64,000 nt of DNA, from positions 248,001 through 312,000 of the forward strand of contig NZ_PJAU01000054.1 in assembly GCF_002836255.1 (NCBI RefSeq), in the 5' to 3' direction. The notes below the pieces were generated by a model. The model saw only the letters and a list, made by a program, of their open reading frames with translations. It was not told where the DNA came from and did no database searches. Source of the DNA: Colwellia sp. 75C3 (GTDB lineage: Bacteria > Pseudomonadota > Gammaproteobacteria > Enterobacterales > Alteromonadaceae). The position numbers were made by a program, and so were the translations under genes. Below, in pieces: positions 1-17,445 of this stretch. How positions within the stretch are numbered: the first letter of the stretch is position 1; each line of letters begins with the position of its first letter.

Positions 1-204
1 ACTAAAAGTGAGTAATGATAGAACGGCAACTAAGACAATATTTGCATGAGGAATAGTACCGCGCTTACCCGGAGAGTTGAGATGCCGAACAATAAAAATG
101 ATGGCAAAAAATGCGGCAAGCATACCTGGTTCGAAATATTGTAAACCGAAATACACCGCTAAAGGATAGGTTATGAGTAGAAGAGCCAATAACGTGTTTT
201 TCAT
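1..204 (-). CDS. Small integral membrane protein, 3' end outside window (aryl-polyene cluster type)
   Basis: An open frame starts with ATG at 204 and runs off the left edge; 68 codons are visible. The product begins MKNTLLALLLITYPLAVYFG and has hydrophobic stretches at about residues 3-20, 28-40 and 55-68, so it is an inner-membrane protein. It resembles the COG4648-type membrane proteins found in aryl-polyene clusters, and it lies just downstream of two acyl carrier protein genes on the same strand. The family call rests mainly on this context. The function is unknown; a role in polyene assembly or transport is inference. Confidence 0.6.
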   Translation of the reverse strand, partial: MKNTLLALLLITYPLAVYFGLQYFEPGMLAAFFAIIFIVRHLNSPGKRGTIPHANIVLVAVLSLLTFS

Positions 205-283
205 AATTTTTAACTAAGGTGCTTCAAATAGGAAGTATTAAATTACCGCTAACACGTTAATAGGTTAGCGGTTTGCCGATCAG

Positions 284-526
284 TTAATCTAATAATTTTT
301 TGATAGCAACGATGACATCTTCAACAGTACGAACTTGTTTAAAGTCATCCGGTTCGATTTTTTTGCCCGTTTGCTCTCTTAATTTAACAACAAGATCAAC
401 GGCATCAATACTATCTAAATCGAGATCTTCATATAAATTAGCTTTAAGCGTTATATCTTCAGCTTCAACTTCAAAAGCTTCTTCTAAGATATTGCTAAGC
501 ATGGTAAATAGTTGTTCATTTGTCAT
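284..526 (-). CDS. Acyl carrier protein (aryl-polyene type)
   Basis: An acidic protein of about 80 residues with the phosphopantetheine attachment motif DLDSIDAVDL; the Ser of DSID is the expected 4'-phosphopantetheine site. It would carry the growing acyl/polyene chain as a thioester in the cytoplasm. The ATG at 526 is chosen because AAGTGAG lies 7 nt upstream. A GTG at 538, directly after the stop of the upstream ACP gene, would add four residues. It is the second of two back-to-back ACPs, as is usual in aryl-polyene and flexirubin clusters. It is not the housekeeping AcpP: the motif and context differ. Confidence 0.88.
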   Translation of the reverse strand: MTNEQLFTMLSNILEEAFEVEAEDITLKANLYEDLDLDSIDAVDLVVKLREQTGKKIEPDDFKQVRTVEDVIVAIKKLLD

Positions 527-538
527 AACATTACTCAC

Positions 539-796
539 TTAAGTACGACTCTCAGCAATAAATTCACATAAGGTTTTTACTGAATAAAAGTGTTTTTTAC
601 TATCATCAGAATTATTGTCTATTTTTACGTCATAGGCTTTTTTAATTGCAACACCTAGTTCTAAGGCATCAATAGAGTCTAAACCTAAACCATCAATAAA
701 AAGGGCATCTTCATAATCAATATCTGCCGGCTCGATGTCTTCGAGATCTAAGGTCTCAATAATTAACTGTTTTACTTCTTCACTTAAATTATTCAT
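539..796 (-). CDS. Acyl carrier protein (aryl-polyene type)
   Basis: An 85-residue acidic protein with the motif LGLDSIDALELGVAI around residues 36-50; the Ser of DSID is the predicted phosphopantetheine site. It ends at the nucleotide before the GTG alternative start of the next ACP gene, so the two are translationally linked. Paired ACPs with divergent sequences are common in aryl-polyene clusters, where one may serve the starter unit and the other elongation. Which is which cannot be told from sequence. Confidence 0.88.
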   Translation of the reverse strand: MNNLSEEVKQLIIETLDLEDIEPADIDYEDALFIDGLGLDSIDALELGVAIKKAYDVKIDNNSDDSKKHFYSVKTLCEFIAESRT

Positions 797-834
797 GTTC
801 CAACTATTCCTTTAACAACTTTAAATTAATATGA

Positions 835-2017: not shown

Positions 2018-3964
2018 GTGATTAGAGATTTAGATAGACTAAATAATATTCCAGAGTTCCCTAAACATAGCCCTACTAACCATTTCAATTGGGTCTTAGT
2101 TTTTCTACTCGTTCTTATGCTTGCTGTTAGCGGGCAATCTGCTGCATTAACCGTTCACCCTGTTTGGCTGCAAGAATCACTTACTAAAGCAGACAAACTT
2201 AATGATAAAAATCCTACTCTAGCACTTGAATTTACCCAAGACTTATTTAACCAGCACCAAAATAAATTAAGCTCTTCGGGTAAAGCTGCGTTATTTTATA
2301 GACTAGCTGCATATCAATATTACTTAGGAAATATTACCGAAGCCCTAAAACATATCGATCAGTTCTATGCATTATCTCCCGATTTAAGCAGTAAGGATGG
2401 CATATCATTATTGCTTATTCATGGCGGTGTACTTGATGGACTAGGTAAATCGAAGCAAGCAATGGATTTGTATTTACACGCAGAAAAGAATGCAAGAGCC
2501 ACAGAAAATAAAAAATTACTCGCTGAGTCTTATAGTTCAATTGCCTATTGGTATTCTGGTAACCATAACGATAGTGAGGCAATAAAGTATTATCATAAAG
2601 CCTATTTATACCTAAAAGATTTAGGTGACGAATTAGATCTAGCGTATTTAAAAATACAAATGTCTAGCGCATACTCCTATATTCATGACAATGAAAAAGC
2701 GATGAGCTTGGCACAAGAAGCCATTGATTACTTCCATCAACATGAATATTATTTTGACGAACTCTTTGCTCATAATACCCTAGCCAAAAATCAAATGGCA
2801 ATAAAGGATTTCGATGGTGCCATTAACACTTACCAACGCGTTATAGAGTTATCAGAGCAAGAAGGTCAAGAGAACCTAATAGACATCGCTTACTTAGGTT
2901 TAGCCAAAGCTTACCAGCGGAAAAAAGACAATAATAAGGCGCGTCATTACTTTTCTTTATACCAAAAAGTACACGCATACTCTGATAGTCCTTTTGCTCA
3001 AATTGATGACTTATTTCTCAGCGCATTAATTGCGTTTTCTGACAAAGATATTGCATTAGCCCAGAAAAATATAAAACAAGCCGAAGCCATTTTATCTCTC
3101 TTAGAAAAAGAAACCGTGCTCTCTTGGTACATTCAAGTATTAGATCTAAAGGCTGATATCGCAGTATTTAACCAAGACTACCAAAACGCTTATCAATACC
3201 AAAAAGAAGCACGTAAGTTGTTTAGCAGCTACCAAAATAACGAACGAGAAAAAGTACGTTCAAAATATAAAGTGATGTTTGATACCGACCAAGCACTGTT
3301 AAAAAACCAACTACTTGAACGCGATAAACTATTAGATAAGGCGGAACTTGAAAACGCGGCACAACAACAGAAATTACAAACATTACTTACCGTGGTAATT
3401 TCCTTACTTGCTCTTGGTTTAATATTCTTTATTTACCGACAACGTATAAATAGTGAAAGACTACACAAATTAGCCAATACCGATATGCTAACGGAACTAG
3501 CTAACCGACGTTGCACCTTTATCTATGCTGAAAGTATGCTAGCTCAAGCAAAGAAGTATAAACAAAACTTTGCCATTATCATTTTCGATATTGATCATTT
3601 TAAAAAAATCAATGATACCTATGGACATCCTGCTGGGGATATTGCTTTAAAGGACATTGCCAGTGTCGCTAATGAATATGTTAGAAACAACGATATATTA
3701 GGCAGAATTGGTGGCGAAGAGTTCTTAGTAATACTACCTAATACCTCTTCAAAACAGGCCTATGAAATCGCAGAACGGATCAGAAAAGCGATTGATAAAA
3801 AGGATATTATTCTGGGTGAAAAGGTAGTCAACATCTCGGCAAGTTTTGGAATCTCTCAGTTAGCGCAAAATCAGTCAAACTTTAATCAAATATTTCATGA
3901 AGCCGATATTGCGCTGTATCAAGCGAAAAATAGCGGTAGAAACTGTATTTCACTAGCGGGTTAA
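2018..3964 (+). CDS. TPR-repeat diguanylate cyclase, membrane-anchored
   Basis: A 648-residue protein. A hydrophobic segment at about residues 25-42 is a signal anchor or signal peptide. It is followed by tetratricopeptide-like helical repeats to about residue 400, a coiled-coil stretch, a second membrane helix (LLTVVISLLALGLIFFIY, about 455-475) and a C-terminal GGDEF domain. The active-site motif is intact (GGEEF in RIGGEEFLVILP), so it should make c-di-GMP from two GTP. The TPR part is predicted to be periplasmic and to sense a protein partner or ligand. The start is GTG at 2018, preceded by GAGAAAAGAG. It stands alone between pigment-cluster genes; no operon partner is seen. Confidence 0.88.
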   Translation: MIRDLDRLNNIPEFPKHSPTNHFNWVLVFLLVLMLAVSGQSAALTVHPVWLQESLTKADKLNDKNPTLALEFTQDLFNQHQNKLSSSGKAALFYRLAAYQYYLGNITEALKHIDQFYALSPDLSSKDGISLLLIHGGVLDGLGKSKQAMDLYLHAEKNARATENKKLLAESYSSIAYWYSGNHNDSEAIKYYHKAYLYLKDLGDELDLAYLKIQMSSAYSYIHDNEKAMSLAQEAIDYFHQHEYYFDELFAHNTLAKNQMAIKDFDGAINTYQRVIELSEQEGQENLIDIAYLGLAKAYQRKKDNNKARHYFSLYQKVHAYSDSPFAQIDDLFLSALIAFSDKDIALAQKNIKQAEAILSLLEKETVLSWYIQVLDLKADIAVFNQDYQNAYQYQKEARKLFSSYQNNEREKVRSKYKVMFDTDQALLKNQLLERDKLLDKAELENAAQQQKLQTLLTVVISLLALGLIFFIYRQRINSERLHKLANTDMLTELANRRCTFIYAESMLAQAKKYKQNFAIIIFDIDHFKKINDTYGHPAGDIALKDIASVANEYVRNNDILGRIGGEEFLVILPNTSSKQAYEIAERIRKAIDKKDIILGEKVVNISASFGISQLAQNQSNFNQIFHEADIALYQAKNSGRNCISLAG

Positions 3965-4081: not shown

Positions 4082-4936
4082 TTAATGTTTTATCAAGTCA
4101 CTAAAGCTTATCTCTTTTATTAACTTTTGTTTAGCACCATAAGCAATGCGATGAGTGCCGTGACAACGGGCACAGGCTAATACAGCTAAAGTACCAAGAT
4201 CTCGCCCTTGTTCTTTCGCAGTACCTGACTCTAATGACTGCTTTAAACTACTGAGTGTTTTTTTCATGGTTTCACTAGGATAAGGTTTGCGATCTTTTTT
4301 ATGACAATCAACACAAGTCTCTCCTAATATTGTCATGCCATCATTAAGGCTAACTAAAGATGATAGTGCTAATGGTTTATTGCCATCTTGCGCTGAAATT
4401 TTTATCTGGTTTACTTGCCTTGTTAACGTATCCATATGATCAACAAAACTCAGTTCAGAGCTAATCTGAATTTTTGAAAAGTCTGGCGTTCTATAGGTCA
4501 AAGCAGTGATGGCTTGATAATCATCATGGCAAGAATCACAGCTTTGCTGCAAGATTTTATGCTGAACTAATACCGATGCATAATCCTTCTGTTCACTGGC
4601 ATTACGCAACTCTGCTGCAGTACTCACAGCTAATTTTTTTTGCCAACTTGGCACCATCTCGGCAATTTTAAGATAATGTTCATTAAGCTGCTCTGCCCAT
4701 TTATTCATGTGTTCAGCATCTTGATTTTTAGCATAAAACTCAACAGCCTGCATTTCACGGCGAAGTTTAAACATATTATGTAGCCAAACTTGGCGCTTAT
4801 TTTCAGGTTTATACCATTGTGCCAATTCAGTAGGCGGAGTTTTAACTAACTGAGCTTTATCTTGGTGCTTATAAATTAGCCCTGCAGCGACTAACAGGAT
4901 AACTATTTGTAAAATAATGAAATAACGCCAACGCAT
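4082..4936 (-). CDS. Membrane-anchored tri-heme c-type cytochrome-like protein
   Basis: A 284-residue protein with one N-terminal membrane helix (IILQIVILLVAAGLIY, residues 7-22) and three CxxCH heme-attachment motifs: CDSCH and CVDCH in the middle and CARCH near the C-terminus. The rest should lie in the periplasm as a multiheme electron carrier or heme sensor. The segment before the first motif looks helical, like a cytochrome c' or nitrate-sensor fold, but that is only an impression. Maturation would need the Ccm system. It lies alone between the GGDEF gene and a small outer-membrane protein gene, and no reductase is adjacent. The substrate is unknown. Confidence 0.72.
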   Translation of the reverse strand: MRWRYFIILQIVILLVAAGLIYKHQDKAQLVKTPPTELAQWYKPENKRQVWLHNMFKLRREMQAVEFYAKNQDAEHMNKWAEQLNEHYLKIAEMVPSWQKKLAVSTAAELRNASEQKDYASVLVQHKILQQSCDSCHDDYQAITALTYRTPDFSKIQISSELSFVDHMDTLTRQVNQIKISAQDGNKPLALSSLVSLNDGMTILGETCVDCHKKDRKPYPSETMKKTLSSLKQSLESGTAKEQGRDLGTLAVLACARCHGTHRIAYGAKQKLIKEISFSDLIKH

Positions 4937-5008
4937 AACTAAGCACTCTGTTTTATTTGATAAGTACTAGTGTATTTTAAATAAAATGAATGGTTATTGA
5001 TTTGGCAT

Positions 5009-5039
5009 AAAAAAAGAGCCTTAAGGCTCTTTTTTTTTA
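5009..5039. terminator. Intrinsic terminator, bidirectional
   Basis: Perfect stem AGAGCCTTAAGGCTCT with A-tract on one side and T-tract on the other. It lies 32 bp past the stop of the 5071-5466 gene and would insulate it from the cytochrome gene. Confidence 0.85.
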
Positions 5040-5070
5040 TCGACACATTAACTCAAATAGGCTGAGTAAA

Positions 5071-5466
5071 TTAGAATGCGAAACGTACACCAATGGCGCC
5101 ATCAACATTAAATTTAAAGCCATCATCAAAATCTGCAACAGGCTGTACTTGCCCATATAAATCCCAGCCTTTAGCAAAGTACCAAGAAACACCTACTGGG
5201 GCACGCATACCAAAACCGTTATCCCAACCAGCCCAGCCACCACCAGAAACATACCAAGATAATGGTGTTTCATTATCAAACGTCCCCGTTTTAACTAAGT
5301 AATCAACGGCAAAACCACTATCACCTAAGACGATATTATAGCGGTCAATTTGAGCAACCAGACTTAAGTCCATATCAAGGGCAACACCAACTTTTACATC
5401 GGCTTGAGCAAGGTTCGATAAAAGTATTGAAAGCATTAACATGCTTACGAATATAATTTTTTTCAT
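5071..5466 (-). CDS. Small secreted outer-membrane beta-barrel-like protein
   Basis: 131 residues. A clear signal peptide (MKKIIFVSMLMLSILLSNLAQA, cut after AQA, residue 22) is followed by alternating hydrophobic/polar strands and ends in the aromatic residue Phe (GVRFAF), as in proteins inserted by the BAM complex. A mature length of about 109 residues is short for a barrel (about eight short strands). No named family is recognised. The RBS AGGA is 7 nt before the ATG. It sits downstream of the ketosynthase gene, but the gap and its own terminator suggest a separate unit. Confidence 0.65.
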   Translation of the reverse strand: MKKIIFVSMLMLSILLSNLAQADVKVGVALDMDLSLVAQIDRYNIVLGDSGFAVDYLVKTGTFDNETPLSWYVSGGGWAGWDNGFGMRAPVGVSWYFAKGWDLYGQVQPVADFDDGFKFNVDGAIGVRFAF

Positions 5467-5510
5467 TTTAAATCCTACGTTTAAATGATTTTCTAATAAA
5501 GCTGACGCTA

Positions 5511-7286
5511 TTATAAAGCTTTTTGTTTAAACAAGCTTACTGCGCATTGACTAATGTCTTCATTTTGTTGCCAATGCACCAAAATAGCATAATCAACGAT
5601 GCCTAATGCTAAGTCAGTTTTTGCTAGTTTTTGTGTTCGTTCTATTGCCTCACTACTTGCCCCAGTAAATAAGTTAACACCCCGAATATTAAACTGTTTT
5701 GCTAAATAAAAATTAGCTGAGTTTCCTACACTGGAAATAAAATCTAACGGCCTAACGTCTTCGCCTTCTTCAATGCTGAGTACCAATGACTGTAATAACG
5801 CTACCGAAAAATAATCCCCAACACCGTACAAACCTAATTGATTTTTATCAAGATTTAACGACTTAACTTGCTCGTTTTCAAATAAATCATGTAACGCTTG
5901 TAATGCAATCAGAGTGAAGGAATCCATACGCCTGACTTCAAAACCTGTTAATTGCTTAACTTGTTTTCTTAATACTTTAGCGCTGAGTTTAGCGTCATAT
6001 TCAACAAAATTTTGTGCAATAACATCTATGTCCACATCAAGATTTACCTTACTGTGAGCATTAGGTTTATCTATCGACATAACAGTATTTTGAGCGGTTA
6101 AATTCTTCAAAACAAAAGCCGCATTATTACCACCAAATCCACAATGATTGGCAAGGATATAATCAATGTTCTTAAATGATTGCTGTGCTGAAACAAAAGT
6201 AAGTAAATGACCCGTCGACGCTTCTGTATTATGTTTTTTACTGCTTTTGTCAATAACGTCTTGGTCTAACGATTGCACATAATCTGGTACTGGCATAATA
6301 TCTTGTTTAACTAAATCAACAAGTAACGCCAACTCTAAAACACCACAAGCTCCGAGAGTATGCCCAATAAAAGGTTTTAATGCTAAGGCAGGCGTTTTTT
6401 TACCAAAAACACGTTCAAGTGCATTCGCCTCAGCCTGATCGCTTGCAAGAGAAGCAGTTCCGTGTGCTTTAATCAATTGAATATTTTGAGCCGTTATTCC
6501 TGATAATTTTATCGATTTCACTATCACTTCGCTAATTTTAGAGCCATCTTCTTCCGTGGTTGTTAAGCTATAACTATCACAAGAAGAATAACCATCCATT
6601 ATCGCTAAGCAACACTCATCATTGGCTTGATTTGACAAAAGTAACGCGCCGACACCTTCACCTAAAACCATGCCATCGCGGTGTTTTGAAAAAGCATGTA
6701 AACCTTGTTCAGAAAGTAATTCTAATGAATTAAAGCCTTTTAACGTTAATTGATTATAAAACTCACAACCAATGACTAATGCTGTTTTTACTTCGCCTGT
6801 TCTCACCAAGCGTGTCGCATAAATAAGTGCGTTACTGCTTGACGTGCACGCGGTGCTAAAGGTGAAATGTAAGTCATTTAAACCATATTTTTTAACTAAG
6901 TAGGCATTGATGCGGTCTAGTTTTGATAACCAAATAGCTTGATCGGACTGACTAACAACAGCACCAATATCCATCGACGATGAACCTAAAAAGAGGCTTG
7001 TGAGCGCTAGTTGTTCGACCGTTAAGGATTGCTCAGTAATCACTTGTTCAATAACCTCGGACAGCAGTTTATATATACGCTGGTAGCTTTCTTCTATTGG
7101 CGCCAGAGGTATCGCTTGATAATAACAATTAAGTGGTTGGGCAAGACGATGCAATGTTTGCCCGTTAGCGTAAGTTACTAAGTTCGCAGCCCCTTGTCCT
7201 AAAACACTTAATGATGCGCTGCCAATAATAAAAACAGGGGCAAGGGCTTGATTACCCACTAAGACAACTTTATTTATATCATGCAT
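5511..7286 (-). CDS. Beta-ketoacyl-ACP synthase fused to an inactive ketosynthase-like domain (aryl polyene)
   Basis: 591 residues. Residues 1-395 form a complete FabF-type ketosynthase: Cys147 in FSTACTSS, His275 in KAHGTAS and His309 in FIGHTLG give the Cys-His-His triad. Residues of about 425-591 look like a second, partial ketosynthase: SVGNSANF (519-526) followed by TGAS (541-544), where the nucleophile Cys should be but is not. This repeats, in one chain, the pairing of a catalytic KS with a chain-length-factor-like partner. FabF is about 410 residues, so the C-terminal extension is real extra mass. It follows an ACP gene by 24 bp and is probably the chain-elongating enzyme of the polyene. 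Confidence 0.85.
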   Translation of the reverse strand: MHDINKVVLVGNQALAPVFIIGSASLSVLGQGAANLVTYANGQTLHRLAQPLNCYYQAIPLAPIEESYQRIYKLLSEVIEQVITEQSLTVEQLALTSLFLGSSSMDIGAVVSQSDQAIWLSKLDRINAYLVKKYGLNDLHFTFSTACTSSSNALIYATRLVRTGEVKTALVIGCEFYNQLTLKGFNSLELLSEQGLHAFSKHRDGMVLGEGVGALLLSNQANDECCLAIMDGYSSCDSYSLTTTEEDGSKISEVIVKSIKLSGITAQNIQLIKAHGTASLASDQAEANALERVFGKKTPALALKPFIGHTLGACGVLELALLVDLVKQDIMPVPDYVQSLDQDVIDKSSKKHNTEASTGHLLTFVSAQQSFKNIDYILANHCGFGGNNAAFVLKNLTAQNTVMSIDKPNAHSKVNLDVDIDVIAQNFVEYDAKLSAKVLRKQVKQLTGFEVRRMDSFTLIALQALHDLFENEQVKSLNLDKNQLGLYGVGDYFSVALLQSLVLSIEEGEDVRPLDFISSVGNSANFYLAKQFNIRGVNLFTGASSEAIERTQKLAKTDLALGIVDYAILVHWQQNEDISQCAVSLFKQKAL

Positions 7287-7309
7287 ACTTTATCTGCTCT
7301 AAGCGATTA

Positions 7310-7618
7310 TTAGCTTTCACTAGTTTGGCTTTGACCTGCCAAAATTAATTCCGCAATGCTGGCAATTGATTGCAAGTGCTTACGTGTTTCTTTTGAGCCT
7401 TCAATACTGATAGCAAATTTTTTCTTCAATACTAGCGATAACTGCAATGCATCAAGTGAATCAAGTGCAATACGTGATTTACGACCAAACAGTAATTCAT
7501 CATCTAAAATATCACTCGGCTCAAAATCATCTTCCTTATCGCACTCTTCGATAATCAGTTTTTTTAATGCCAGCATGAGTTCTGCTTTGTTCACTTGTTC
7601 TAAAGAGTTTATGTCCAT
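7310..7618 (-). CDS. Acyl carrier protein
   Basis: A 102-residue ACP-like protein with the prosthetic-group motif ALDSLDALQLSL; Ser of DSLD is the likely phosphopantetheine site. It is longer than a normal ACP, with an acidic N-terminal helix and a Ser/Gln-rich tail. It overlaps the end of the ABC permease gene by 10 bp and is followed 24 bp later by the fused ketosynthase, so the three are almost certainly one transcript. It is the third ACP in this locus. Confidence 0.85.
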   Translation of the reverse strand: MDINSLEQVNKAELMLALKKLIIEECDKEDDFEPSDILDDELLFGRKSRIALDSLDALQLSLVLKKKFAISIEGSKETRKHLQSIASIAELILAGQSQTSES

Positions 7619-8775
7619 GACAACCTTTTTGTTTTGTAGTTAAAAATGATTAGAGCAGCAATAAAACAAATGCTACCAAAGCAGGTAAGTAATAATAAAT
7701 TGCTTGAAGCTTGCGTAAAAGTCGCGCCAGACAGCCCCTGTTTTAACAACTCTGACGACCAATACATAGGAGAGAAGCTAGCAATTTTCGCGAGGGCTTG
7801 TGGCATGATATCAATCGGTACCATAAAACCACTCAATGCAGCCAACAAGATATTAATGCCACCACCAAGTACAATGGCTTGTTCAAAGGTATTCACTAAA
7901 ACCGCTAACAAAAAGGCAAAACCAATGGCAGCAAAAATAATAAAAAAACCTGATAATACGTACAAGCTTGGACTATTGATTACTAATACCGCCTGCTCTG
8001 TCAGCCAAGGTACACATAAAAGCCCAACGACACTCAATAATATCCATTGAAATAAACTCACTACGCCATAAGACAGTGCCTTATTAAAAAAGTAATAATG
8101 ATTACTAATAGGGTAAGTTTGAATTCGCAGTAAAGTACCATTTTCTTTTTCTTTAATTAAGGTAGTAGAAATAGGTAAGACAATAAAATATAAACCAAAA
8201 ATAAGCCAAGAGGGAATGCTATACAAGGTTGGCGCATTAAATAATTGTTGCTCTTCATCTTGCGTAATTAAGTAATCAACACTGGCACTGGTATTAACTA
8301 AGGCTACTTTTTCAAGCAAAGGTAAGTCTTCATCAAAATCACCATTATCTTCCATATAAGCGTGCAGTTTTAGCTTAGATAACGCAACTTTAACCAACTC
8401 AACCACCATGGTACGGCTTTGTGGTGATAATTGCGGACTAAAATCTAATACCAACGTCCCTTCCCCTAGACGCATTAATAGGTTATCACTAAAACCGGCT
8501 TGTACCATCAATGAGGCATCAAATTTATCATCCATCTGATTAACACCTAAACCACTGCTTTTTATATAGTGTGCTAAGGTCGATAATTGTTCATCGTCAC
8601 ATTGGCTCTCACACTCTATGGCTATGTTTATTTTCTTCACTAAGTTTTCTTGTTGCTCGCCCATCGCTAAGGTCATGATAATCATAAAAGTAATAGGTAA
8701 TAAAATAAGCACCGCAAGGCTGTGTAAGTCATTAGCAATAATAATGGCTTCTTTTTTAACGCTCTGAATTAACAT
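7609..8775 (-). CDS. ABC-2 type transporter permease
   Basis: A 388-residue permease of the ABC-2 type. It has one N-terminal helix (residues 19-42), a large periplasmic loop of about 150 residues, then five or six helices from about residue 187 to the end. The segment around LIKEKENGTLLRIQTYPIS before the core helices is typical of ABC-2 permeases. With the ATPase encoded just upstream (7-bp overlap) it would export a lipid-like product, plausibly the aryl-polyene or dialkylresorcinol ester. The large periplasmic loop is as in YhhJ/YbhS-type exporters. Confidence 0.85.
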   Translation of the reverse strand: MLIQSVKKEAIIIANDLHSLAVLILLPITFMIIMTLAMGEQQENLVKKINIAIECESQCDDEQLSTLAHYIKSSGLGVNQMDDKFDASLMVQAGFSDNLLMRLGEGTLVLDFSPQLSPQSRTMVVELVKVALSKLKLHAYMEDNGDFDEDLPLLEKVALVNTSASVDYLITQDEEQQLFNAPTLYSIPSWLIFGLYFIVLPISTTLIKEKENGTLLRIQTYPISNHYYFFNKALSYGVVSLFQWILLSVVGLLCVPWLTEQAVLVINSPSLYVLSGFFIIFAAIGFAFLLAVLVNTFEQAIVLGGGINILLAALSGFMVPIDIMPQALAKIASFSPMYWSSELLKQGLSGATFTQASSNLLLLTCFGSICFIAALIIFNYKTKRLSWT

Positions 8776-9795: not shown

Positions 9796-11853
9796 CTAAA
9801 TAATTTGCGCTAACTGTGCCGCTTCTAAAATGGCACGTTCGGCATCAACACCGCTAGCATTTTTAGCCCCACCAATTAAATGACAAGGTTTGTCGGTAAT
9901 CGTTACGGCTAAGCTATTTTCTTCAAGCTGACCTGTGCAGTTAATAATATGGTCAACCGCTAATAATCTAGGCTTGCCACGCACTAATAAATGTAAACCT
10001 TGCTGGTCTATCTTTTCATAAGTCACACCGACCGTCATTTTTACTTTTTTATTTTTCAAATGTTGGCGGTGGATCCAACCAGTCGTTTTTCCTAAATCCG
10101 TACCAGGTTTACGTAAGCGCCTTTGTAACATGGTAATGGTGCGCTTTGCTGGCTCAACATGTTTATCAGCCAAACCGCCCGCTTGTTTGAGGGAGAGATC
10201 AATGCCCCATTCTTGCATAAACTCATTTTCGATGTTTTGTACTTTGGAGCTTTGGCTGGTAGTTTTATTACCGTGACTTGCTTCATTGCTTTCACTTACT
10301 AAGAAAAGCGCGACATCAAAACCAATACCACCTCCGCCGATAATAGCAACATGTTGACCTACTTGTTTATCACCCGATAAAACATCTTGATAACTGAGTA
10401 CTTTCCCGCTATTTATCCCGTCCACTAAACCAGGAATTTCAGGTAGCCTAGCTCGAACTCCCGTTGCTAGTATGACCTCATCAAAATCAGCCAAGTCAGT
10501 ACTATTTACTCGAACATTTAGTTTAATGGTTACCCCGAGCTTAGGTAATATTGCTTTAAAATAACGCAAGGTATGTAAAAACTCTTCTTTACCCGGTACC
10601 TTACTCGCTAAGTTAAATTGACCGCCAATTTTATCACTGGCTTCAAAAAGCGTCACTTGATGACCACGTTGAGCAGCATATTTTGCAAAAGCCAAGCCTG
10701 CAGGTCCTGCACCTACCACAGCTAATTTTTTCATCTGCTTTGCCACGGTAAAATTTAACGTTGTTTCATTACACGCTCTAGGATTGACTAGGCATGAAGC
10801 CGTTTTCCTAATAAAAATTTTATCTAAGCAGCCTTGATTACAGGCAATACAAGTATTTATTTCATCAGACTGCCCTGCCATGGCCTTGTTAACAAAATTG
10901 CTATCAGCTAAAAAAGGCCGCGCCATTGACACTAAGTCAGCTTGTTTATTGGCAATTATTTGTTCTGCTTGCTCTGGCGTGTTGATGCGATTACTGGTGA
11001 TCACCGGAATACTAATATGCTGTTTAATATTTTCACTTAACGGCACAAATAAACCACTCGGCACGGAAGCTGAAATTGTCGGCACCCTTGATTCATGCCA
11101 ACCAATGCCGGTATTGATAATATTAACGCTATGTTGCTCTAACAACTGAGCTAAGGTAATCACTTCTGTTGCTGAACTACCTTGTTCAATCAGATCAATC
11201 ATAGATAGACGGAAGATTAATAAAAAATCATTACCCACTGCAGCGCGAGTACGTTTTACTATTTCTAACGCAAAGCGAATTCGCTTTTCAAAACTACCGC
11301 CCCAATCATCAGTACGCTCATTAGTGGCTTTAACAATAAATTGATTAATGAGATAACCTTCTGATCCCATAATTTCAACACCGTCATAGCCAGCTTGTTT
11401 AGCAAGCACCGCACTTTGCACAAAATCATTAATTTGAGTTTCGATCTCACTTACTGTCAACGCACGAGGTGCATATAAACTAATAGGCGCTTGAATAGCT
11501 GATGGGGCAACTTGATTAACGTGATAACCATAACGGCCAGCATGGAGAATTTGCATACAAATTTTACAATCAAATTCATGCACAGCATCAGTAATCAGTT
11601 GGTGATCTTTAACATCACTTTGCTGCTGCATAATGGCTCTATCTGGCGCAACAATACCACTGAGGTTAGGAGATATCCCTCCTGTGATAATCAAGCCAAC
11701 GCCACCTTTAGCGCGTTCACGATAAAAAGCTGCAACTTTAACAAAACCTTGCTCAGTTTCTTCCAAGCTAGTATGCATAGAACCCATCACCACACGATTT
11801 TTAAGTGTGGTGTTTTTTAAGGCGAGTGGTTTTAATAAATGGGGAAAGGACAT
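9796..11853 (-). CDS. fadH: FadH-type NADPH-dependent 2,4-dienoyl-CoA reductase
   Basis: 685 residues with the Old Yellow Enzyme-type FMN barrel (about 1-340), a 4Fe-4S cluster ligand set (CIACNQGCLDKIF...SCLVNP, about 338-362) and an FAD/NAD(P) half with two dinucleotide folds (VVGAGPAGLAFA and IIGGGGIGFDVA). The start NRVVMGSMHTSLEE and the motif GYDGVEIMGSEGYLINQF match E. coli FadH closely. FadH removes 2,4-double bonds of enoyl-CoA during beta-oxidation. A short Ser/Thr/Asn-rich insert (around residue 530) is unusual. It lies 34 bp upstream of the ABC exporter genes on the same strand, so it may share their transcript; whether it serves fatty-acid breakdown or the polyene pathway is open. 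Confidence 0.87.
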   Translation of the reverse strand: MSFPHLLKPLALKNTTLKNRVVMGSMHTSLEETEQGFVKVAAFYRERAKGGVGLIITGGISPNLSGIVAPDRAIMQQQSDVKDHQLITDAVHEFDCKICMQILHAGRYGYHVNQVAPSAIQAPISLYAPRALTVSEIETQINDFVQSAVLAKQAGYDGVEIMGSEGYLINQFIVKATNERTDDWGGSFEKRIRFALEIVKRTRAAVGNDFLLIFRLSMIDLIEQGSSATEVITLAQLLEQHSVNIINTGIGWHESRVPTISASVPSGLFVPLSENIKQHISIPVITSNRINTPEQAEQIIANKQADLVSMARPFLADSNFVNKAMAGQSDEINTCIACNQGCLDKIFIRKTASCLVNPRACNETTLNFTVAKQMKKLAVVGAGPAGLAFAKYAAQRGHQVTLFEASDKIGGQFNLASKVPGKEEFLHTLRYFKAILPKLGVTIKLNVRVNSTDLADFDEVILATGVRARLPEIPGLVDGINSGKVLSYQDVLSGDKQVGQHVAIIGGGGIGFDVALFLVSESNEASHGNKTTSQSSKVQNIENEFMQEWGIDLSLKQAGGLADKHVEPAKRTITMLQRRLRKPGTDLGKTTGWIHRQHLKNKKVKMTVGVTYEKIDQQGLHLLVRGKPRLLAVDHIINCTGQLEENSLAVTITDKPCHLIGGAKNASGVDAERAILEAAQLAQII

Positions 11854-11973
11854 AACAAACTCAATAGCCGTGTAAGTTGATAACGAAACTTAACAGCCTC
11901 CACATAGGGCAACAAAAGATAACAAATTGCCGCTAGACTAGCAAAAACGAGCTTTTCTTGCAAAGTAATTACC

Positions 11974-12474
11974 TTATCTGCTTTTTTTACTTCGCTTTTT
12001 TTTCTTGTTGTTAAGTTTAATAGTGACTAAGTGACTCGTTATGTCATGTTCATCGTAGTTAAAGCAGCTGTTTTGGGCACTAGGGTAACCTAACATTAAA
12101 CTAGGATTACCGGAAAAACCAGTTGGCTCTTTAGGTATACCGTTACTACTAAAATCAAGTTGACCGTTAGCGTTACTATCTTGAAAAACCCGAACAATAT
12201 ACGACCCTTTTTTAAGCATTGAAAACCGCAATTGCATAGCGTTTTCACTAATAGCAGATTGACCGCTGTCTAAAAGTCTTAATTCATGCCAAGGCGTTTC
12301 TTCATTGTTTGGGCAAGTAAATAATTGATAATGCAGCTGACCTTGAATCTCCTTAATACGTGTTACGTCTACTAAAAGAGCCGCATTGTTGGCGTAAAGC
12401 TTAGTAACAGGAAACAAGACAAAAACTGCGGTGAATATTACAGTGAACAGGCGAGGAAAAAGGTAATGTTTCAT
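11974..12474 (-). CDS. Secreted DUF2141-family protein
   Basis: 166 residues. A signal peptide (MKHYLFPRLFTVIFTAVFVL...LYA, about 1-28) precedes a DUF2141-type domain with the typical segment YIVRVFQDSNANGQLDFSSNGIPKEPTGFSG near the middle. The C-terminus is Lys-rich (KKKKRSKKSR). The ATG at 12474 is chosen because a longer reading from 12639 would start inside the adjacent MITE and hide the signal peptide. DUF2141 proteins are often found beside pigment and lipid genes; their function is unknown. It diverges from the darA operon. Confidence 0.8.
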   Translation of the reverse strand: MKHYLFPRLFTVIFTAVFVLFPVTKLYANNAALLVDVTRIKEIQGQLHYQLFTCPNNEETPWHELRLLDSGQSAISENAMQLRFSMLKKGSYIVRVFQDSNANGQLDFSSNGIPKEPTGFSGNPSLMLGYPSAQNSCFNYDEHDITSHLVTIKLNNKKKKRSKKSR

Positions 12475-12508
12475 GTGATTTATAGCTATGATTGAGTTGA
12501 ATTGTTTA

Positions 12509-12819
12509 TACCCGCTCCACTTGAAGATGCTCGTTTCAGGAAATCTGAGCGATTCATAATCAAGGCACATTTTTGTATTAAGGGTTATTCCCTTAAAAAG
12601 AAATGTAACGCAGAGTATGATTTGTCCAGTCTTCCCCAAGGGGCTGATTTAGAAACGCTTTATGCTGCGTTATTGATTTCGACAAGGACGCTACATGGAT
12701 GTAGCTTCTTAGAGAATGCAGGAGCACAATCTCCTGAACAACCATTCTGTTCAATCAATGCCTTGCCTAAAGGCGTTTCTAATTCCAGCTGAATCATGCA
12801 TCTTCAAGTGGAACGGGTA
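12509..12819. mobile_element. 311-bp MITE-like element with 22-bp terminal inverted repeats
   Basis: Left end TACCCGCTCCACTTGAAGAT.. (12509-12530) and right end ..ATCTTCAAGTGGAACGGGTA (12798-12819) are inverted copies with one mismatch over 22 bp. TTTA flanks both ends, a possible 4-bp target duplication. The interior has further palindromes and no transposase. It lies between the start of the DUF2141 gene and the darA promoter. Open frames inside it are not genes. Confidence 0.85.
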
Positions 12820-12827
12820 TTTATCTA

Positions 12828-12855
12828 TTTTCATTCTAAGACAATAAAGTATAAT
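12828..12855 (+). promoter_or_regulatory. Candidate sigma-70 promoter of the darA operon
   Basis: A perfect TATAAT at 12850-12855 with TTTTCA at 12828-12833 (16-bp spacer), 33 bp before the chosen darA start. The -35 box begins 9 bp after the MITE's end, so the insertion replaced everything upstream of it. Confidence 0.5.
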
Positions 12856-12888
12856 AACCCACAAATTTATCTTGTTAGGCTTATCTTG

Positions 12889-13815
12889 GTGCGCAAAGTT
12901 CTCGTTATTCATTACTCACAAACAGGTCAACTCACTCGCATCACTGACTCGATAATTGCTCCTCTAAAGCAAGAGAACGATATTCAAGTTGATTGTCTGA
13001 CCTTAGAGCCAGAGCAGAGCTACCCTTTTCCTTGGCCATTTTTACGATTTTTTCATATTTTCCCTGAAGCGGTAAAAATGACTCCACAGGCGTTGAAGCC
13101 AATAGATAAGACAATTGTTAACGCTGCTGATGAATATGATCTCATCATTTTAAGCTACCAAGTTTGGTTTTTATCGCCATCAACACCTATTTCGTCTTTT
13201 TTACAAAGTGATGAAGCTAAAGCCCTTTTCAAAAATAAAGCCGTTGTTACCGTGATTGGTTGTCGAGGCATGTGGTTAAACGCCCAAGAAAAAGTGAAAA
13301 AACTACTCAACTCATTAAAAGCTAACTTAGTCGATAATGTCGCATTAACCGATGATTGTGGCGCAGCATTTAGTTTCTTAGCGACACCAATGTGGATGTT
13401 CACCGGTAGAAAAAAAGCCTATTCATGGTTACCTACTGCTGGGGTAAGTGAAGATGATATTGTTAACGCCAAACGCTTTGGTCTTGCCATCAAAAAAAGA
13501 TTACAACGTGATGACAGCCTTATCTCTCAGCCTATGCTAAAAGGTTTAGGCGCGGTTAAAATTAATGAAAAACTGATTGCTAGTGAACGTGTCGGTAATC
13601 ATAGCTTTACTATTTGGAGCAAACTATTAACGGCCCTAGGCCCACAAAACTCAGTGCGCCGTAGTTGTGGCTTATTAGTCTATGTGGTATTTTTATTGAC
13701 CTTAATCCTCACGGTTGTACCTATCACTGCACTGATAAAAAAACTTATCGCCCCCTTAACTAAAAAACGTATCCGCGCACAAAAAGAATATTTTGCTGAG
13801 CCTTCTGGAGAGTAG
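12889..13815 (+). CDS. darA: DarA-type dialkylresorcinol condensing enzyme (flavodoxin-like)
   Basis: 308 residues from the GTG at 12889. The protein starts VRKVLVIHYSQTGQLTRI, a flavodoxin-like phosphate loop, and continues with the PFPWPFLRFFHIFPEAV segment characteristic of the DarA family. A membrane helix near the C-terminus (about 262-282, LLVYVVFLLTLILTVVPI) anchors it. DarA works with DarB to condense and aromatise two beta-keto acyl chains into a dialkylresorcinol. A longer reading from 12796 would start inside the MITE terminal repeat, so it is rejected. The gene is 8 bp before darB. Confidence 0.82.
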   Translation: MRKVLVIHYSQTGQLTRITDSIIAPLKQENDIQVDCLTLEPEQSYPFPWPFLRFFHIFPEAVKMTPQALKPIDKTIVNAADEYDLIILSYQVWFLSPSTPISSFLQSDEAKALFKNKAVVTVIGCRGMWLNAQEKVKKLLNSLKANLVDNVALTDDCGAAFSFLATPMWMFTGRKKAYSWLPTAGVSEDDIVNAKRFGLAIKKRLQRDDSLISQPMLKGLGAVKINEKLIASERVGNHSFTIWSKLLTALGPQNSVRRSCGLLVYVVFLLTLILTVVPITALIKKLIAPLTKKRIRAQKEYFAEPSGE

Positions 13816-13823
13816 TTGTAACA

Positions 13824-14984
13824 ATGGATTTTACCGAAAAAGAAAACTCAGTTTTTATCACGCGTTTAACTGCGGTTATGCCTAACGAACCTGTCAGTAA
13901 CGCTGATATGGAAAAAGTATTAGGACAAGTTGGTGAGCAAAGATCACGCGCAAAATCAGTCATTTTACGTAGTAATAAAATTAAATCACGTCACTATGGT
14001 ATTGATCCTGAAACTGGCGAGTTTAATTACACTAATGCCTCTCTTGCCGCTGAAGCAGTAAACAAGTTATTACCCGACGCGGAAGAATTAGCGCAAGTTG
14101 ATACCCTGGTTGCCAGCACATCGATGCCGGATCAAACCATGCCAAACCATGGTGTAATGGTTCATGGCCAATTGAACATACCGCCATGTGAAGTCATATC
14201 AACCGCAGGCATATGTGTCTGTGGTATTACAGCCCTTAAGTATGGCTATTTGGCGATAAAAGCGGGTGAAAGTAAAAAAGGCGTTGTTGTTGCTAGTGAA
14301 CTAGCCTCCAGCGTCATGCATGCTAGTAATTTCGAAGCTGAATGTCAGCATAAAGTAGAACAACTCACCAGTAAGCCAGAGCTCGCTTTTGAGAAAGATT
14401 TTTTACGTTGGATGTTATCAGATGGCGCCGGCGCTGCATTGTTAAGTAATGAACCCAACATAGACAGTCTGTCATTAAAAATTGATTGGATAGAAATATT
14501 ATCTTTTGCCAATGAATTAGAAGCTTGCATGTATGCCGGAGCTGAAAAAAGCCAAGGCGCACTCAAAGGCGGCTTACGTTACAGCAGCCAAGAACGCGAG
14601 CAACAATCTATTGCGGCAGTAAAGCAAGATGTAAAGTTACTCAACGAAAACATCGTTAAAGTCACGGTAGAAAATGCCCTGAATCGCATTAAAGTAAAAC
14701 GAAATATCAGCCCAGAAGATTTTGATTACTTCATTCCACACTACTCTTCAGGCTATTTTAGAGAACGTTTGTATGAAGGCTTGGTTAATATAAATTTTGA
14801 AATACCTTTTGAAAAATGGTTTACCAATTTAACCACTAAGGGTAATACGGGTTCAGCCTCTATATTCATCATGTTAGAAGAATTATTCAACGATAATGAG
14901 CTAATTAAAGGTCAAAAGCTGTTATGTTACATCCCTGAAAGTGGACGGTTCTCTAGCGCTTTCATGCAGTTAACGGTAGTGTAA
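13824..14984 (+). CDS. darB: DarB-type ketosynthase III (dialkylresorcinol synthesis)
   Basis: 386 residues with the FabH/chalcone-synthase fold. The catalytic region is STAGICVCGITAL; Cys131 or Cys133 is the nucleophile. The His of FIPHYSSGYF and the Asn of TKGNTGSAS complete the Cys-His-Asn triad. DarB joins two fatty-acyl or beta-keto acyl thioesters head to head, and DarA then acts on the product. The tight pairing darA-darB (8-bp gap) is the hallmark of dialkylresorcinol and flexirubin loci. It is longer than FabH (about 317 residues), as expected for this subgroup. Confidence 0.85.
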   Translation: MDFTEKENSVFITRLTAVMPNEPVSNADMEKVLGQVGEQRSRAKSVILRSNKIKSRHYGIDPETGEFNYTNASLAAEAVNKLLPDAEELAQVDTLVASTSMPDQTMPNHGVMVHGQLNIPPCEVISTAGICVCGITALKYGYLAIKAGESKKGVVVASELASSVMHASNFEAECQHKVEQLTSKPELAFEKDFLRWMLSDGAGAALLSNEPNIDSLSLKIDWIEILSFANELEACMYAGAEKSQGALKGGLRYSSQEREQQSIAAVKQDVKLLNENIVKVTVENALNRIKVKRNISPEDFDYFIPHYSSGYFRERLYEGLVNINFEIPFEKWFTNLTTKGNTGSASIFIMLEELFNDNELIKGQKLLCYIPESGRFSSAFMQLTVV

Positions 14985-15074
14985 CAGGCATAAGTAATAC
15001 TGAACGAATTACCGACTTAGTTACAACTTAATTATCCAATAAATGATTGAATAAGTACTTCTCAAGGACAGCCA

Positions 15075-15473
15075 ATGAACGATAAAGATGTACCACAAGA
15101 CGACAGCACGACCTACCAAGGGCAAAAAAAGCTAATTTATGCTGTTGATGATAGTGGTAATTACCATGGCGTTAAGTCGAGTGGTTGGGAAGTAGAAAGC
15201 TTTGCTACACAAATGGCCGTTGATGATTTACAAGAGCAAACACAAGATGCGCTTATTCAAGCGCGTCAAGGTGAGGTATCTCCTTTGGCCTATCACATGC
15301 TTAGACTTAGGTTTGATATTAGTTCGTTGTCACAAACCACTGGATTTTTTCAGTGGCAAATCAAACGTCACTTAACACCTAAAGTTTTTAATAAATTATC
15401 TGAGAGTAAGCTCAATACCTATGGTGAAGTAATGAAGCTCACTATCGCTGAATTAATCAGTTTACCCAAATAG
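15075..15473 (+). CDS. Small cytosolic protein of the dar cluster, unknown function
   Basis: 132 residues, acidic at the N-terminus, no signal peptide or membrane segment. A short conserved-looking stretch (LIYAVDDSGNYHGVKSSGWEVE, about 20-41) is followed by helices. The C-terminal part (LSQTTGFFQWQIKRHLTPKVF) could be a helix-turn-helix-like or protein-binding unit. It lies 90 bp after darB and 78 bp before the BtrH-domain gene on the same strand, so it likely belongs to resorcinol synthesis. I recognise no named family. Confidence 0.65.
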   Translation: MNDKDVPQDDSTTYQGQKKLIYAVDDSGNYHGVKSSGWEVESFATQMAVDDLQEQTQDALIQARQGEVSPLAYHMLRLRFDISSLSQTTGFFQWQIKRHLTPKVFNKLSESKLNTYGEVMKLTIAELISLPK

Positions 15474-15551
15474 ATAATGACTAACGCTAGTATTTAACCT
15501 TAATATTCAGCTCTTATATTCGTCCGATAAAAACAACAATAAGCCAAGCCA

Positions 15552-16556
15552 ATGACAGACATTATTTTAGATATAGACCATCAACAATCTTCACACTGCG
15601 AATCTGGTGTTATTTCAACGTTATTACGTAGTAAAGGCCTAAAAATTTCAGAGCCGATGGCTTTTGGTTTATCTTCTGCGTTAACCTTCGTTTATTTACC
15701 TATGGTTAAAATTGGTGGCTTACCGTTAATTGCTTATCGCATGCCGCCAAAAGCAATTATAAAAGCAGTATGTAAAAAGCTTAAGGTGGAATTAGACAGT
15801 CAAAATTTTTCAAACCAAGCTAAAGGCATGCAAGCCCTTGATGATGAGCTAGCTAAAGGTAATTTAGTTGGCTTACAAACCTCAGTTTATTGGTTACCTT
15901 ATTTCCCTGAAGATATGCGATTTCATTTTAATGCGCATAATTTGGTGGTTTACGGGAAAACAGCAGCAGGAAATTACTTAATCAGCGATCCTGTGTTTGA
16001 ACACTTAGTAGAGTGTCCGGCAGAAGATTTACAACGTGCTCGTTTCGCCAAAGGTGCATTAGCAGCAAAAGGCAGAATGTATGTGGTACGTAACGTACCA
16101 AGCGACATTGACTTAACCCCACATATTTATAGTGCAATTAATAAAACAGCCAAGATGATGAATGGTTTATTACTGCCATTTTTTGGTAATAAAGGTATTA
16201 AGTTTTTAGCTAAAAAAATTCGTTCTTTAGTTAAAACAAAACCTAAATATCAAAAATTATTCTTAGGTAATATTGTTCGTATGCAAGAAGAAATAGGTAC
16301 CGGTGGTGCTGGATTTCGCTTTATGTTTGCTAGCTTCTTAGCTGAGTCGGCAAAATTAACTAACAATGACGATTTACAAGCGGCGGCTAAGCAAGCAACT
16401 GAAGTGGGTGATAATTGGCGTGAATTTGCTATGGATGCTGTATTGTTTTGTAAGAAACGTAAAGATCTTAGTTTAGATAATGTTGCCGATAAATTGGAAA
16501 GCTGTGCGACACAAGAGCAAGCATTACGCAGTACCTTACTCGCAATAAAAGGTTAG
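15552..16556 (+). CDS. BtrH N-terminal/DUF4872-type protein of the dar cluster
   Basis: 334 residues. The N-terminus (SSHCESGVISTLLRSKG, about 14-30) and the following FGLSSALTF segment match the BtrH N-terminal fold, a papain-like Cys acyltransferase seen in butirosin synthesis, where Cys and His pass an acyl group from ACP to an acceptor. Here Cys18 is the obvious candidate nucleophile, and HNLVVYGK and NYLISDP look like the His and Asp parts. In flexirubin-type clusters such proteins are good candidates for esterifying the polyene acid with the resorcinol. This is inference; only family resemblance and location support it. Confidence 0.72.
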   Translation: MTDIILDIDHQQSSHCESGVISTLLRSKGLKISEPMAFGLSSALTFVYLPMVKIGGLPLIAYRMPPKAIIKAVCKKLKVELDSQNFSNQAKGMQALDDELAKGNLVGLQTSVYWLPYFPEDMRFHFNAHNLVVYGKTAAGNYLISDPVFEHLVECPAEDLQRARFAKGALAAKGRMYVVRNVPSDIDLTPHIYSAINKTAKMMNGLLLPFFGNKGIKFLAKKIRSLVKTKPKYQKLFLGNIVRMQEEIGTGGAGFRFMFASFLAESAKLTNNDDLQAAAKQATEVGDNWREFAMDAVLFCKKRKDLSLDNVADKLESCATQEQALRSTLLAIKG

Positions 16557-16576
16557 TAATAAACGCTAACTTCAAT

Positions 16577-16598
16577 AGGCGTTATCTCACTAACGCCT
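16577..16598. terminator. Hairpin between convergent genes, likely terminator
   Basis: Perfect 8-bp stem AGGCGTTA/TAACGCCT with a 6-nt loop, 21 bp past the BtrH-type gene and 29 bp before the stop of the convergent acyltransferase gene. The T-tract is weak (AACCTTTT). Confidence 0.55.
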
Positions 16599-16626
16599 GA
16601 TTAACCTTTTCACACACAAGCAATTA

Positions 16627-17445
16627 CTAGCTATTAGTATTGCTAAGCGCTTCAACGAAAAAATCTTGCAGCGTTTGATTATAGTGACGAACTTGTTTGC
16701 TAATATTTTTACTGTCACAGCTACTTTCAAAGTTGCTTGGTTCCAGTGAATTATCAATTAACTCAGCACTAAATTGTGCCTTGTATGCAGGCACTTTATA
16801 CCAAGGCTCTGATTTAGTTAACGTCGTTGGTTTGACTTGAATAAGCACAGTACTAATACCTGACTCTTGCTTTGTTAACTGTGAATCCTCTGATAAACAG
16901 CGCAAAGCAATATTGGCAGCACCACGTTGGAACTTAATGTTTTGTCCCGGTGTAGTACGCGTGCCTTCAGGAAAAATTATCAGGTTATTACCTGCAGCAA
17001 TTGATTTTTTACAATCAACCAATAGCCCTTCAGGGTCAGCATTACTGATATAACCCGTACTTTTAACCACGCCACGTAAAAAAGGATTCGTAAATAAGTG
17101 AGCCTTCACGACACAATCGGCATTAGGGATTATTGAGATAAGCACCACAACATCAATAAGTGATGGGTGGTTAGCAAGTACCAACTGACTATTCATTTCA
17201 CTTAACTTTCTTGCTCTTACCAAATCAAAGCTAAAGATTCCGGTAAAGGCCATCAAGCCGATAAAAAACTTAAAAGTATAATGAACAGTTTTACGCGCAA
17301 CTTGTTTTTGCTTAGCTTTACCTTTAATGAATAGTTTTTGTAATGGAAAAACAAAAACAGTTAAAAATATACCGCCTATACCAAAGCAGGCGAAACAAAA
17401 GCCGGTTGCGACAATGCGCCAAAGATGATTAAAATAGTTGAGCAT
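16627..17445 (-). CDS. 1-acylglycerol-3-phosphate acyltransferase-like (PlsC family)
   Basis: 272 residues with an N-terminal membrane helix, the acyltransferase motif NHPSLIDVV (H-x4-D) and the second motif FPEGTRTTPG. These two place it in the PlsC/lysophospholipid acyltransferase family. It is convergent with the dar operon. Similar acyltransferases occur in aryl-polyene and flexirubin loci, where they are thought to attach the polyene acid to a lipid or head group. A general role in phospholipid synthesis cannot be excluded. Confidence 0.85.
   Translation of the reverse strand: MLNYFNHLWRIVATGFCFACFGIGGIFLTVFVFPLQKLFIKGKAKQKQVARKTVHYTFKFFIGLMAFTGIFSFDLVRARKLSEMNSQLVLANHPSLIDVVVLISIIPNADCVVKAHLFTNPFLRGVVKSTGYISNADPEGLLVDCKKSIAAGNNLIIFPEGTRTTPGQNIKFQRGAANIALRCLSEDSQLTKQESGISTVLIQVKPTTLTKSEPWYKVPAYKAQFSAELIDNSLEPSNFESSCDSKNISKQVRHYNQTLQDFFVEALSNTNS

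Follow-up and report, generated by a model that had tools for sequence, protein, structure and literature searches.

A probable aryl polyene–dialkylresorcinol ester gene cluster in Colwellia sp. 75C3, with DarH as the candidate joining enzyme

Which product is made by the pigment-type locus at the left end of the DNA analysed here, and which of its proteins would join the two halves of that product? The DNA (the window) is a stretch of 64,000 nucleotides, bases 248001-312000 of contig NZ_PJAU01000054.1 (C58) in the 5.4 Mb genome of the Colwellia-group bacterium Colwellia sp. 75C3, and it was studied together with its left flank (L007, C58:228001-248000). A preliminary description had proposed a hybrid aryl polyene (APE) and dialkylresorcinol locus, and the gene content supports this: a polyene module and genes of the darA, B, C, D, E, F, I and J types (letters after PMC3949708) occur in one genome. 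The locus of about 33 kb (C58:232432-265445) is very probably, as read from its sequence, a complete-looking cluster for an ester of an aryl polyene carboxylate with a 2,5-dialkylresorcinol, which is predicted to be a membrane pigment. In kind it is ordinary, being one more example of a widespread and already described class. Its value lies in the joining step, for which the joining enzyme is left open in the available text of PMC3949708 and a ligase-like protein, FlxW, is suggested for flexirubin in PMC3992019. For this step DarH emerges as a concrete, single-gene hypothesis on the strength of its fold, its invariant residues and its co-occurrence.

The window starts in the right end of the APE cluster, which is followed by three genes and then by the full dar module. 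Two acyl carrier proteins (ACPs) of the polyene module are encoded on the minus strand at 284-538 (PF00550, 52.2 bits; motif DLDLDSIDA) and 539-796 (PF00550, 33.1 bits; GLDSI), beside a Ketoacyl-synt_2 protein of 250 aa (835-1587, minus; PF13723, 219 bits, cut-off 25), which we take to be chain-length-factor-like. The locus had been thought to run past position 1, and the remainder of the APE set was indeed found in the 20 kb to the left, including the lyase, dehydratases, ketoreductase and thioesterase that the preliminary description had named for that flank. All of these genes lie on the minus strand. In L007 coordinates they encode a 121-aa membrane-type frame without a Pfam match (19635-20000), an AMP ligase (18138-19541), an ApeI-type dehydratase (17795-18145; PF22818, 44.9 bits, cut-off 28.5), a GT2 glycosyltransferase (16980-17795), an LpxL-type acyltransferase (15999-16979), an aromatic amino acid lyase (14413-15978) and a 4HBT thioesterase (13899-14525). 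Furthermore, the flank holds a gene at the LolA position (13137-13895), which had no Pfam match and took its name from its position and from clusters in the literature, an 871-aa transporter weakly similar to HAE3/MMPL (10601-13216), a halogenase-like FAD enzyme (9316-10668), a DUF3261 protein (8612-9307), two ketosynthases (7375-8574 and 4432-5661), an ApeP-type dehydratase (6858-7325; PF22817, 69.5 bits, cut-off 27) and a ketoreductase (6042-6767). The Ape names are Pfam's own for both dehydratases and were given to the other genes by analogy. The set characteristic of APE clusters was thus present, with ACPs, a ketosynthase and its partner, a ketoreductase, both types of dehydratase, a ligase and an exporter, the last assigned from weak NCBIfam similarity.

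The dar module begins on the minus strand with a DarJ-like ketosynthase of 591 aa (5511-7286; PF00109/PF02801), in which the motifs TACTSS at 145, HGTA at 275 and GHTLG at 308 supply the Cys, His and His. The protein has a C-terminal extension. The Ketoacyl-synt_2 protein showed no significant similarity to DarJ (best E 0.053), and therefore the fused part of DarJ is without support as a domain of that kind. The DarC-like ACP (7310-7618, minus) carries an LDSLDA motif; it had no Pfam match and scored 33.9 bits with NCBIfam PRK09184, below the cut-off of 70. Accordingly, the DS serine motif is found in all three ACPs of the window and a Pfam PP-binding match in two of the three. The exporter genes encode a DarI-like ABC-2 permease (7609-8775, minus; PF12698, 94.8 bits) and a DarF-like ABC ATPase (8769-9761, minus; PF00005, 105.7 bits). 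On the plus strand, the flavodoxin-like DarA (12796-13815) is separated by 8 bases from DarB (13824-14984). These genes, together with the two polyene ACPs and the Ketoacyl-synt_2 protein above and the BtrH-type gene and a PlsC-type gene described below, are those named in the preliminary description, and all were present as open frames.

DarA matched no Pfam model and no curated DarA model, and a weak flavodoxin model was its single match. It was assigned because of its homology to proteins found beside DarB in other loci (40-73% identity) and its own position there. In the table for Azoarcus the corresponding protein is called 'DAR-aromatase' (PMC3949708). Among plasmid records, three from Streptomyces matched DarA at 30.0-31.5% and were annotated as hypothetical, and the initial 30 or so residues of the frame may lie ahead of the true start. 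DarB belongs to the StlD/DarB family of ketosynthase/cyclases, as had been proposed, by both its model score (NF005293, 568 bits, cut-off 450) and its nearest structure: two StlD sequences were the only PDB matches at E ≤ 1e-10 (7.5e-137 and 1.9e-135). It scored below the narrower resorcinol_DarB exception model (NF053539, 474.9 against 550). Residues C131, H306 and N335 were kept in at least 97% of 78 sequences; we assume catalytic roles for them by analogy with β-ketoacyl-ACP synthase III. Downstream follow a DarG-family protein of 132 aa (15075-15473, plus; NF053536, 177 bits, cut-off 70), which by position is darD of Azoarcus, and DarH (15552-16556, plus; NF053550, 483.7 bits, cut-off 300), the darE of Azoarcus, composed of BtrH_N and DUF4872 domains (PF14399 and PF16169).

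From gene content, families, conserved residues, a modelled fold and co-occurrence we infer the following route, in which the individual reactions, the nature of the starter, the chain length and the ester itself are all proposals. The ammonia-lyase would supply a (hydroxy)cinnamate-type starter, which the AMP ligase would place on a polyene ACP (284-796). The type II ketosynthases, the ketoreductase and the ApeI- and ApeP-type dehydratases would then lengthen it to the polyene. In the other branch, DarJ and DarC would provide a β-ketoacyl thioester, DarB would carry out condensation and cyclisation, and DarA would aromatise the product. DarH would take the polyenoyl group from its ACP onto Cys16 and pass it to a resorcinol hydroxyl, and the ester would be exported by the RND/MMPL-like (resistance-nodulation-division type) and ABC transporters.

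The co-occurrence of DarH, DarB and polyene markers was determined in a class sample of 377 gammaproteobacterial genomes, that of the window included. DarH exceeded its cut-off in 18 genomes and DarB in 19, and all 18 DarH genomes were within these 19; in every one of them DarH came with DarB and a polyene marker. Five more genomes gave DarH matches below the cut-off (23-129 bits), none together with DarB above its own. Ketoacyl-synt_2 occurred in 18/18 DarH genomes against 73/359 others, and ApeP in 13/18 against 25/359. The Fisher values for DarH with DarB, Ketoacyl-synt_2 and ApeP were 8e-30, 2e-12 and 8e-11, respectively, with relatedness among the genomes ignored. In addition, a family of 248 genomes (G071; P. 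viridiflava, L098) contained 28 with DarB above the cut-off, and among these DarH was found in 27 and ApeP in 28; the DarH search covered these 28 DarB genomes. This family overlaps the class sample, since G484 and G485 duplicate the matches of G431 and G221, coordinates included.

The spread of the locus was studied by scanning the GTDB genome collection with a DarH alignment. This returned 487 relatives, of which the best 80 were inspected, a list biased toward the query and in which losses at contig ends were scored as misses. DarG was present in 78 of these 80 loci, DarB in 77 (one, in L059, a fragment), DarA in 76, DarF in 66, DarI in 63, DarJ in 62 and DarC in 58. The first three counts indicate that the dar arrangement is not a matter of chance. 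Three loci had no DarB nearby. In Aggregatibacter kilianii (L110) it lies on another contig, L078 starts at a contig end, and Bibersteinia trehalosi (L092) has no DarB genome-wide and unrelated frames interrupt its locus. In the last of these, polyene genes are still accompanied by DarG, by a DarF match and by the greater part of DarH. The polyene markers were looked for in 50 of the genomes behind the 80 loci; ApeP was found in 45 of them and Ketoacyl-synt_2 in three of the other five. Moreover, the distances among Dar proteins were correlated (r 0.79-0.88). Those for ApeR (r 0.51-0.59) were not used because the choice of best hits had probably let in other ketosynthases: they covered 66-69 taxa, and ApeR itself occurred in 23 loci.

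Judged by their titles, most of these best 80 of 487 loci, 71 in number, were from Gammaproteobacteria or groups within them, including Pseudoalteromonas, Paraglaciecola, Catenovulum, Pseudomonas, Vibrio, Rheinheimera and Rodentibacter. The remaining nine were two Neisseria, three Sulfurimonas, one Campylobacteraceae bin and three bins of other phyla. Accordingly, the implication of the preliminary description that the locus is remarkable for a gammaproteobacterium is not supported. The result was in agreement with earlier reports of hybrids of this kind, from betaproteobacteria in 2014 (PMC3949708) and from Pseudoalteromonas in 2023 (PMC9966250), and with the published view that these pigments are no marker of Bacteroidota (PMC3949708). 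Among 41 near genomes, a DarB match was obtained in 11, seven of them of the full type (at least 53% identity).

The joining step had been ascribed to either the BtrH-type protein or PlsC. The first is supported here: DarH is the best candidate for the ester-forming enzyme, and PlsC is a less likely one. Residues C16, H129 and D146 of DarH were present in 81/81 sequences, and NCBIfam names the family 'BtrH-related acyltransferase DarH'. Its structural model resembled, over the whole chain, the carrier-protein acyltransferases AziU3, CtaG and CcbD, with 10-15% identity in the fold-match rows and Cys, His and Asp at similar spacing; C11, H128 and D144 of CtaG (numbers from PDB titles) were paired with the DarH residues by order and spacing only. 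When the DarH profile was run against PDB sequences, six weak rows were obtained (E 0.016-0.61), which look like designed helical proteins, so the relation to CtaG, CcbD and AziU3 is one of modelled fold. The acceptors of CtaG and CcbD are presumably amines, whereas the acceptor proposed for DarH is a phenol. Together, the fold, the invariant residues and the co-occurrence make it rather likely that DarH is the enzyme moving the polyenoyl group from its ACP to the resorcinol. In nearly all the listed loci the DarG gene is placed between those of DarB and DarH, and DarG may assist DarH. The AlphaFold model of DarG had a pLDDT (predicted local distance difference test) of 78.5, with a confident, helical C-terminal part, and no PDB match was obtained at E ≤ 0.001. 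Many of its top PDB rows were helix-turn-helix proteins, at E 0.02-0.2, and no such assignment was made.

The PlsC-type acyltransferase gene lies beyond darH (16627-17445, minus; PF01553, 56.9 bits). A PlsC gene was seen in ten loci; in eight of them it adjoined Ketoacyl-synt_2 and ACP genes and in two (L044, L045) darH. PlsC is set back as the joiner because its usual place is the polyene module, and the gene at hand most likely belongs to that module and has been displaced to the dar end.

Several findings weigh against the proposed ester pathway. The Ketoacyl-synt_2 model PF13723 is broad, matching 91 of the 377 genomes, and ApeP was absent from five of the 18 DarH genomes. Neither polyene marker was found in two of the 50 DarH genomes, both metagenome bins. 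Conversely, two genomes with short operons (G249 and G602) had DarA, DarB and ApeP and lacked DarH; DarG and the ABC genes were also absent from the inspected 20 kb (L154) and 10 kb (L165), and in G602 an ACP-like frame follows darB, as in darABC of Pseudomonas chlororaphis (PMC6403133). Genome G067 carried a DarH frame in an interrupted locus and no DarB genome-wide. The DarH model was of low confidence at residues 1-14, beside Cys16, and at 48-64 and 247-250. The APE and dar modules are set apart by three genes. Finally, the lyase fell below both the flexirubin tyrosine ammonia-lyase (TAL) model (NF053541, 328.7 against 700) and hutH (391.3 against 539.15), and its selectivity position holds a Phe-His pair. 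For these two reasons the starter acid is uncertain. We take the Phe-His pair to differ from the classic pairs for tyrosine, phenylalanine and histidine. Among 11 lyases of fetched loci, L-[TS]-R-F-H-G-C-G occurred in eight and F-H-G in all, and a literature search gave nothing relevant to the substrate. In a relative (G009, L028-L030), the lyase matches fell in two frames about 10 kb from the LpxL-type gene, which may reflect a frameshift or an assembly error.

A different assignment of the joining step alone, in which a PlsC- or LpxL-type acyltransferase or a FlxW-like ligase forms the ester and DarH serves, for example, in proteolysis or in loading the resorcinol chain, is unlikely. Both acyltransferase types are present in the locus, the N-terminal part of DarH is folded like the papain-like C39 peptidases, and the retention of DarAB and ApeP without DarH in G249 and G602 also fits such an arrangement. 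DarE of Azoarcus is annotated as a 'BtrH-like peptidase' in PMC3949708, which was the only report linking BtrH with flexirubin in a literature search that left most subscription papers outside.

Somewhat less credible still are two adjacent, independent pathways, in which the APE module would make an aryl polyene lipid and the dar module a free dialkylresorcinol for export. The three intervening genes are consistent with it, and so is the equipment of the polyene module, a glycosyltransferase and acyltransferases of LpxL-like and PlsC-like kinds, which is that of ordinary clusters for APE lipids. In several genomes of the P. viridiflava family, moreover, DarH and ApeP lie on separate contigs or megabases apart. 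Against separate pathways stands the joint occurrence of DarH, DarB and Ketoacyl-synt_2 in every DarH genome of the class sample, and the dar genes lie inside the APE cluster in G020 (L054) and in Neisseria (L072, L075). Furthermore, Azoarcus makes a joined product despite having its polyene genes in two unlinked loci (PMC3949708). A true flexirubin cluster recently transferred from Bacteroidota is highly improbable: the gene set is broadly the one described for flexirubin (PMC3992019), but the flexirubin TAL model and the flexirubin DarG model (NF053545, 133 against 170) stayed below their cut-offs, and within the 80 loci, a comparison that included no Bacteroidota sequence, the nearest relatives of DarB and DarH came from Litorilituus, Pseudoalteromonas and other Alteromonadales or gammaproteobacterial bins. 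The flexirubin label used in the preliminary description, in its strict sense, was accordingly dropped.

The joined polyene-resorcinol cluster preferred here was compared with known systems. The hybrid APE-resorcinol cluster of three yellow-orange Pseudoalteromonas strains (P. distincta/arctica) is likewise from a gammaproteobacterium and has both gene sets (PMC9966250). The dar order of the present locus recurs in seven other Pseudoalteromonas loci (L046-L051, L053), whereas L066 and L067 lack one of its genes, the flavoenzyme gene described below. The arc/dar system for arcuflavin in Azoarcus sp. BH72 shares darA, darB, darD, the BtrH-like darE, darF/darI, darC and darJ, and mass spectrometry there supports a polyene joined to a resorcinol (PMC3949708). 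It differs in its starter, 3-hydroxybenzoate made by a chorismatase in place of an ammonia-lyase, in its unlinked polyene genes and in a gene table without such a flavoenzyme (PMC3949708). The flexirubin clusters of Chitinophaga pinensis and Flavobacterium johnsoniae share the ammonia-lyase start, the type II polyene enzymes, DarA and DarB, LolA, a glycosyltransferase and an exporter (PMC3992019). In P. chlororaphis PCL1606, DarA and DarB are also common to the darABC-darSR cluster, the genes listed are darA, darB, darC and two regulators, and the product is 2-hexyl-5-propylresorcinol (PMC6403133). An ACP-type darC is shared as well. If DarH has the proposed role, a free resorcinol fits a dar cluster that, as described, has no such gene (PMC6403133).

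Apart from DarG, two genes had been missed in the preliminary description, and both lie on the minus strand between the ABC genes and darA. One encodes an old-yellow-enzyme (OYE)/FadH-type flavoenzyme (9796-11853; PF00724, 286.7 bits, and PF07992) with a Cys cluster, C-x2-C-x3-C-x11-C, at 335-354, and the other a DUF2141 protein (11974-12639; PF09912, 81.3 bits). Both belong to the order shared with the seven Pseudoalteromonas loci. Among the genes looked for, DUF2141 adjoined darA in 35 of the 80 loci. The OYE orthologue was found in 12 of the 80, with a full-length frame in ten of these; a thirteenth match had 25% identity. The 12 loci were seven from Pseudoalteromonas, two from Colwellia, one from Litorilituus, one from an uncultured Alteromonadaceae and one gammaproteobacterial bin. 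The enzyme is therefore described here as a lineage-specific accessory, with a change in the redox state of one pigment half as its conjectural role. The chances seem evenly poised for a wider proposal. In it, DarH is the ester synthase of polyene-resorcinol pigments, a papain-like, Cys-dependent carrier-protein acyltransferase that works with DarG and acts on an oxygen of phenolic type, and the species that have it may number several hundred, given 487 relatives of which 80 were inspected; the OYE/FadH-type enzyme of the Colwellia/Litorilituus/Pseudoalteromonas lineage would further change the redox state of the resorcinol or the polyene to give an undescribed member of the class.

As well as the full type, a second, DarB-like ketosynthase of 369 aa was observed. 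In three of the 11 near genomes with a DarB match it was the only one (39-41% identity), in two of the seven full-type genomes it was an additional copy, and one further match was marginal. It occurs without DarA in L039 and L041, and also in L156-L158, and a DarB-like match alone was seen in L040, L042 and L043. By eye, the gene in L039 and L041 lies near his-operon genes, with a membrane-type frame of about 200 aa before it and frames of about 229 and 285 aa after it. Four genomes with lower-scoring DarB-like matches (G397, G150, G106 and G269; 313-420 bits) had no DarH; polyene markers were present in G397 and in none of the other three. The downstream frames of G150, G106 and G269 looked similar to those in L039 and L041.

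The three genes between the modules are probably not biosynthetic. They encode a GGDEF protein (2018-3964, plus) and a YfaZ-like protein (5071-5466, minus), both open frames named by eye, and a cytochrome c-like protein (4082-4936, minus) assigned by Pfam. In the nearest relative (G024), GGDEF and cytochrome genes likewise sit between APE and dar. Before the GGDEF gene, a 54-base stretch (1941-1994) has four more matches (81-91%) in the same genome, two on contig C1 and one each on C33 and C15. Neither Rfam matches above gathering scores nor tRNA genes were found. Promoter-like sites numbered 45 against 53.6 in shuffles and terminator-like sites 19 against 14.3, and these counts were not used as evidence.

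To the right, a tandem array of 6.6 copies of a 91-base unit (94%) was observed at 21300-21951. Its motifs TTCGGGCGTAAACACCCTCCTACA and TGTAGGAACAGGCTTTAGCCGTGAACATC recur, by eye, in repeats resembling repetitive extragenic palindromic (REP) elements at 28352-28461, 28602-29522, 29810-29886 and 48817-48985. A frame of 165 aa with a DHFHW motif (29165-29662, minus) overlaps these REP-like repeats and, in our view, resembles a REP-associated tyrosine transposase (RAYT). Judging from translations, a large exopolysaccharide/capsule-type locus extends from 21968 to 43482, with genes for export, a chain-length/tyrosine kinase, a sugar transferase, a GDP-mannose dehydratase and glycosyltransferases.

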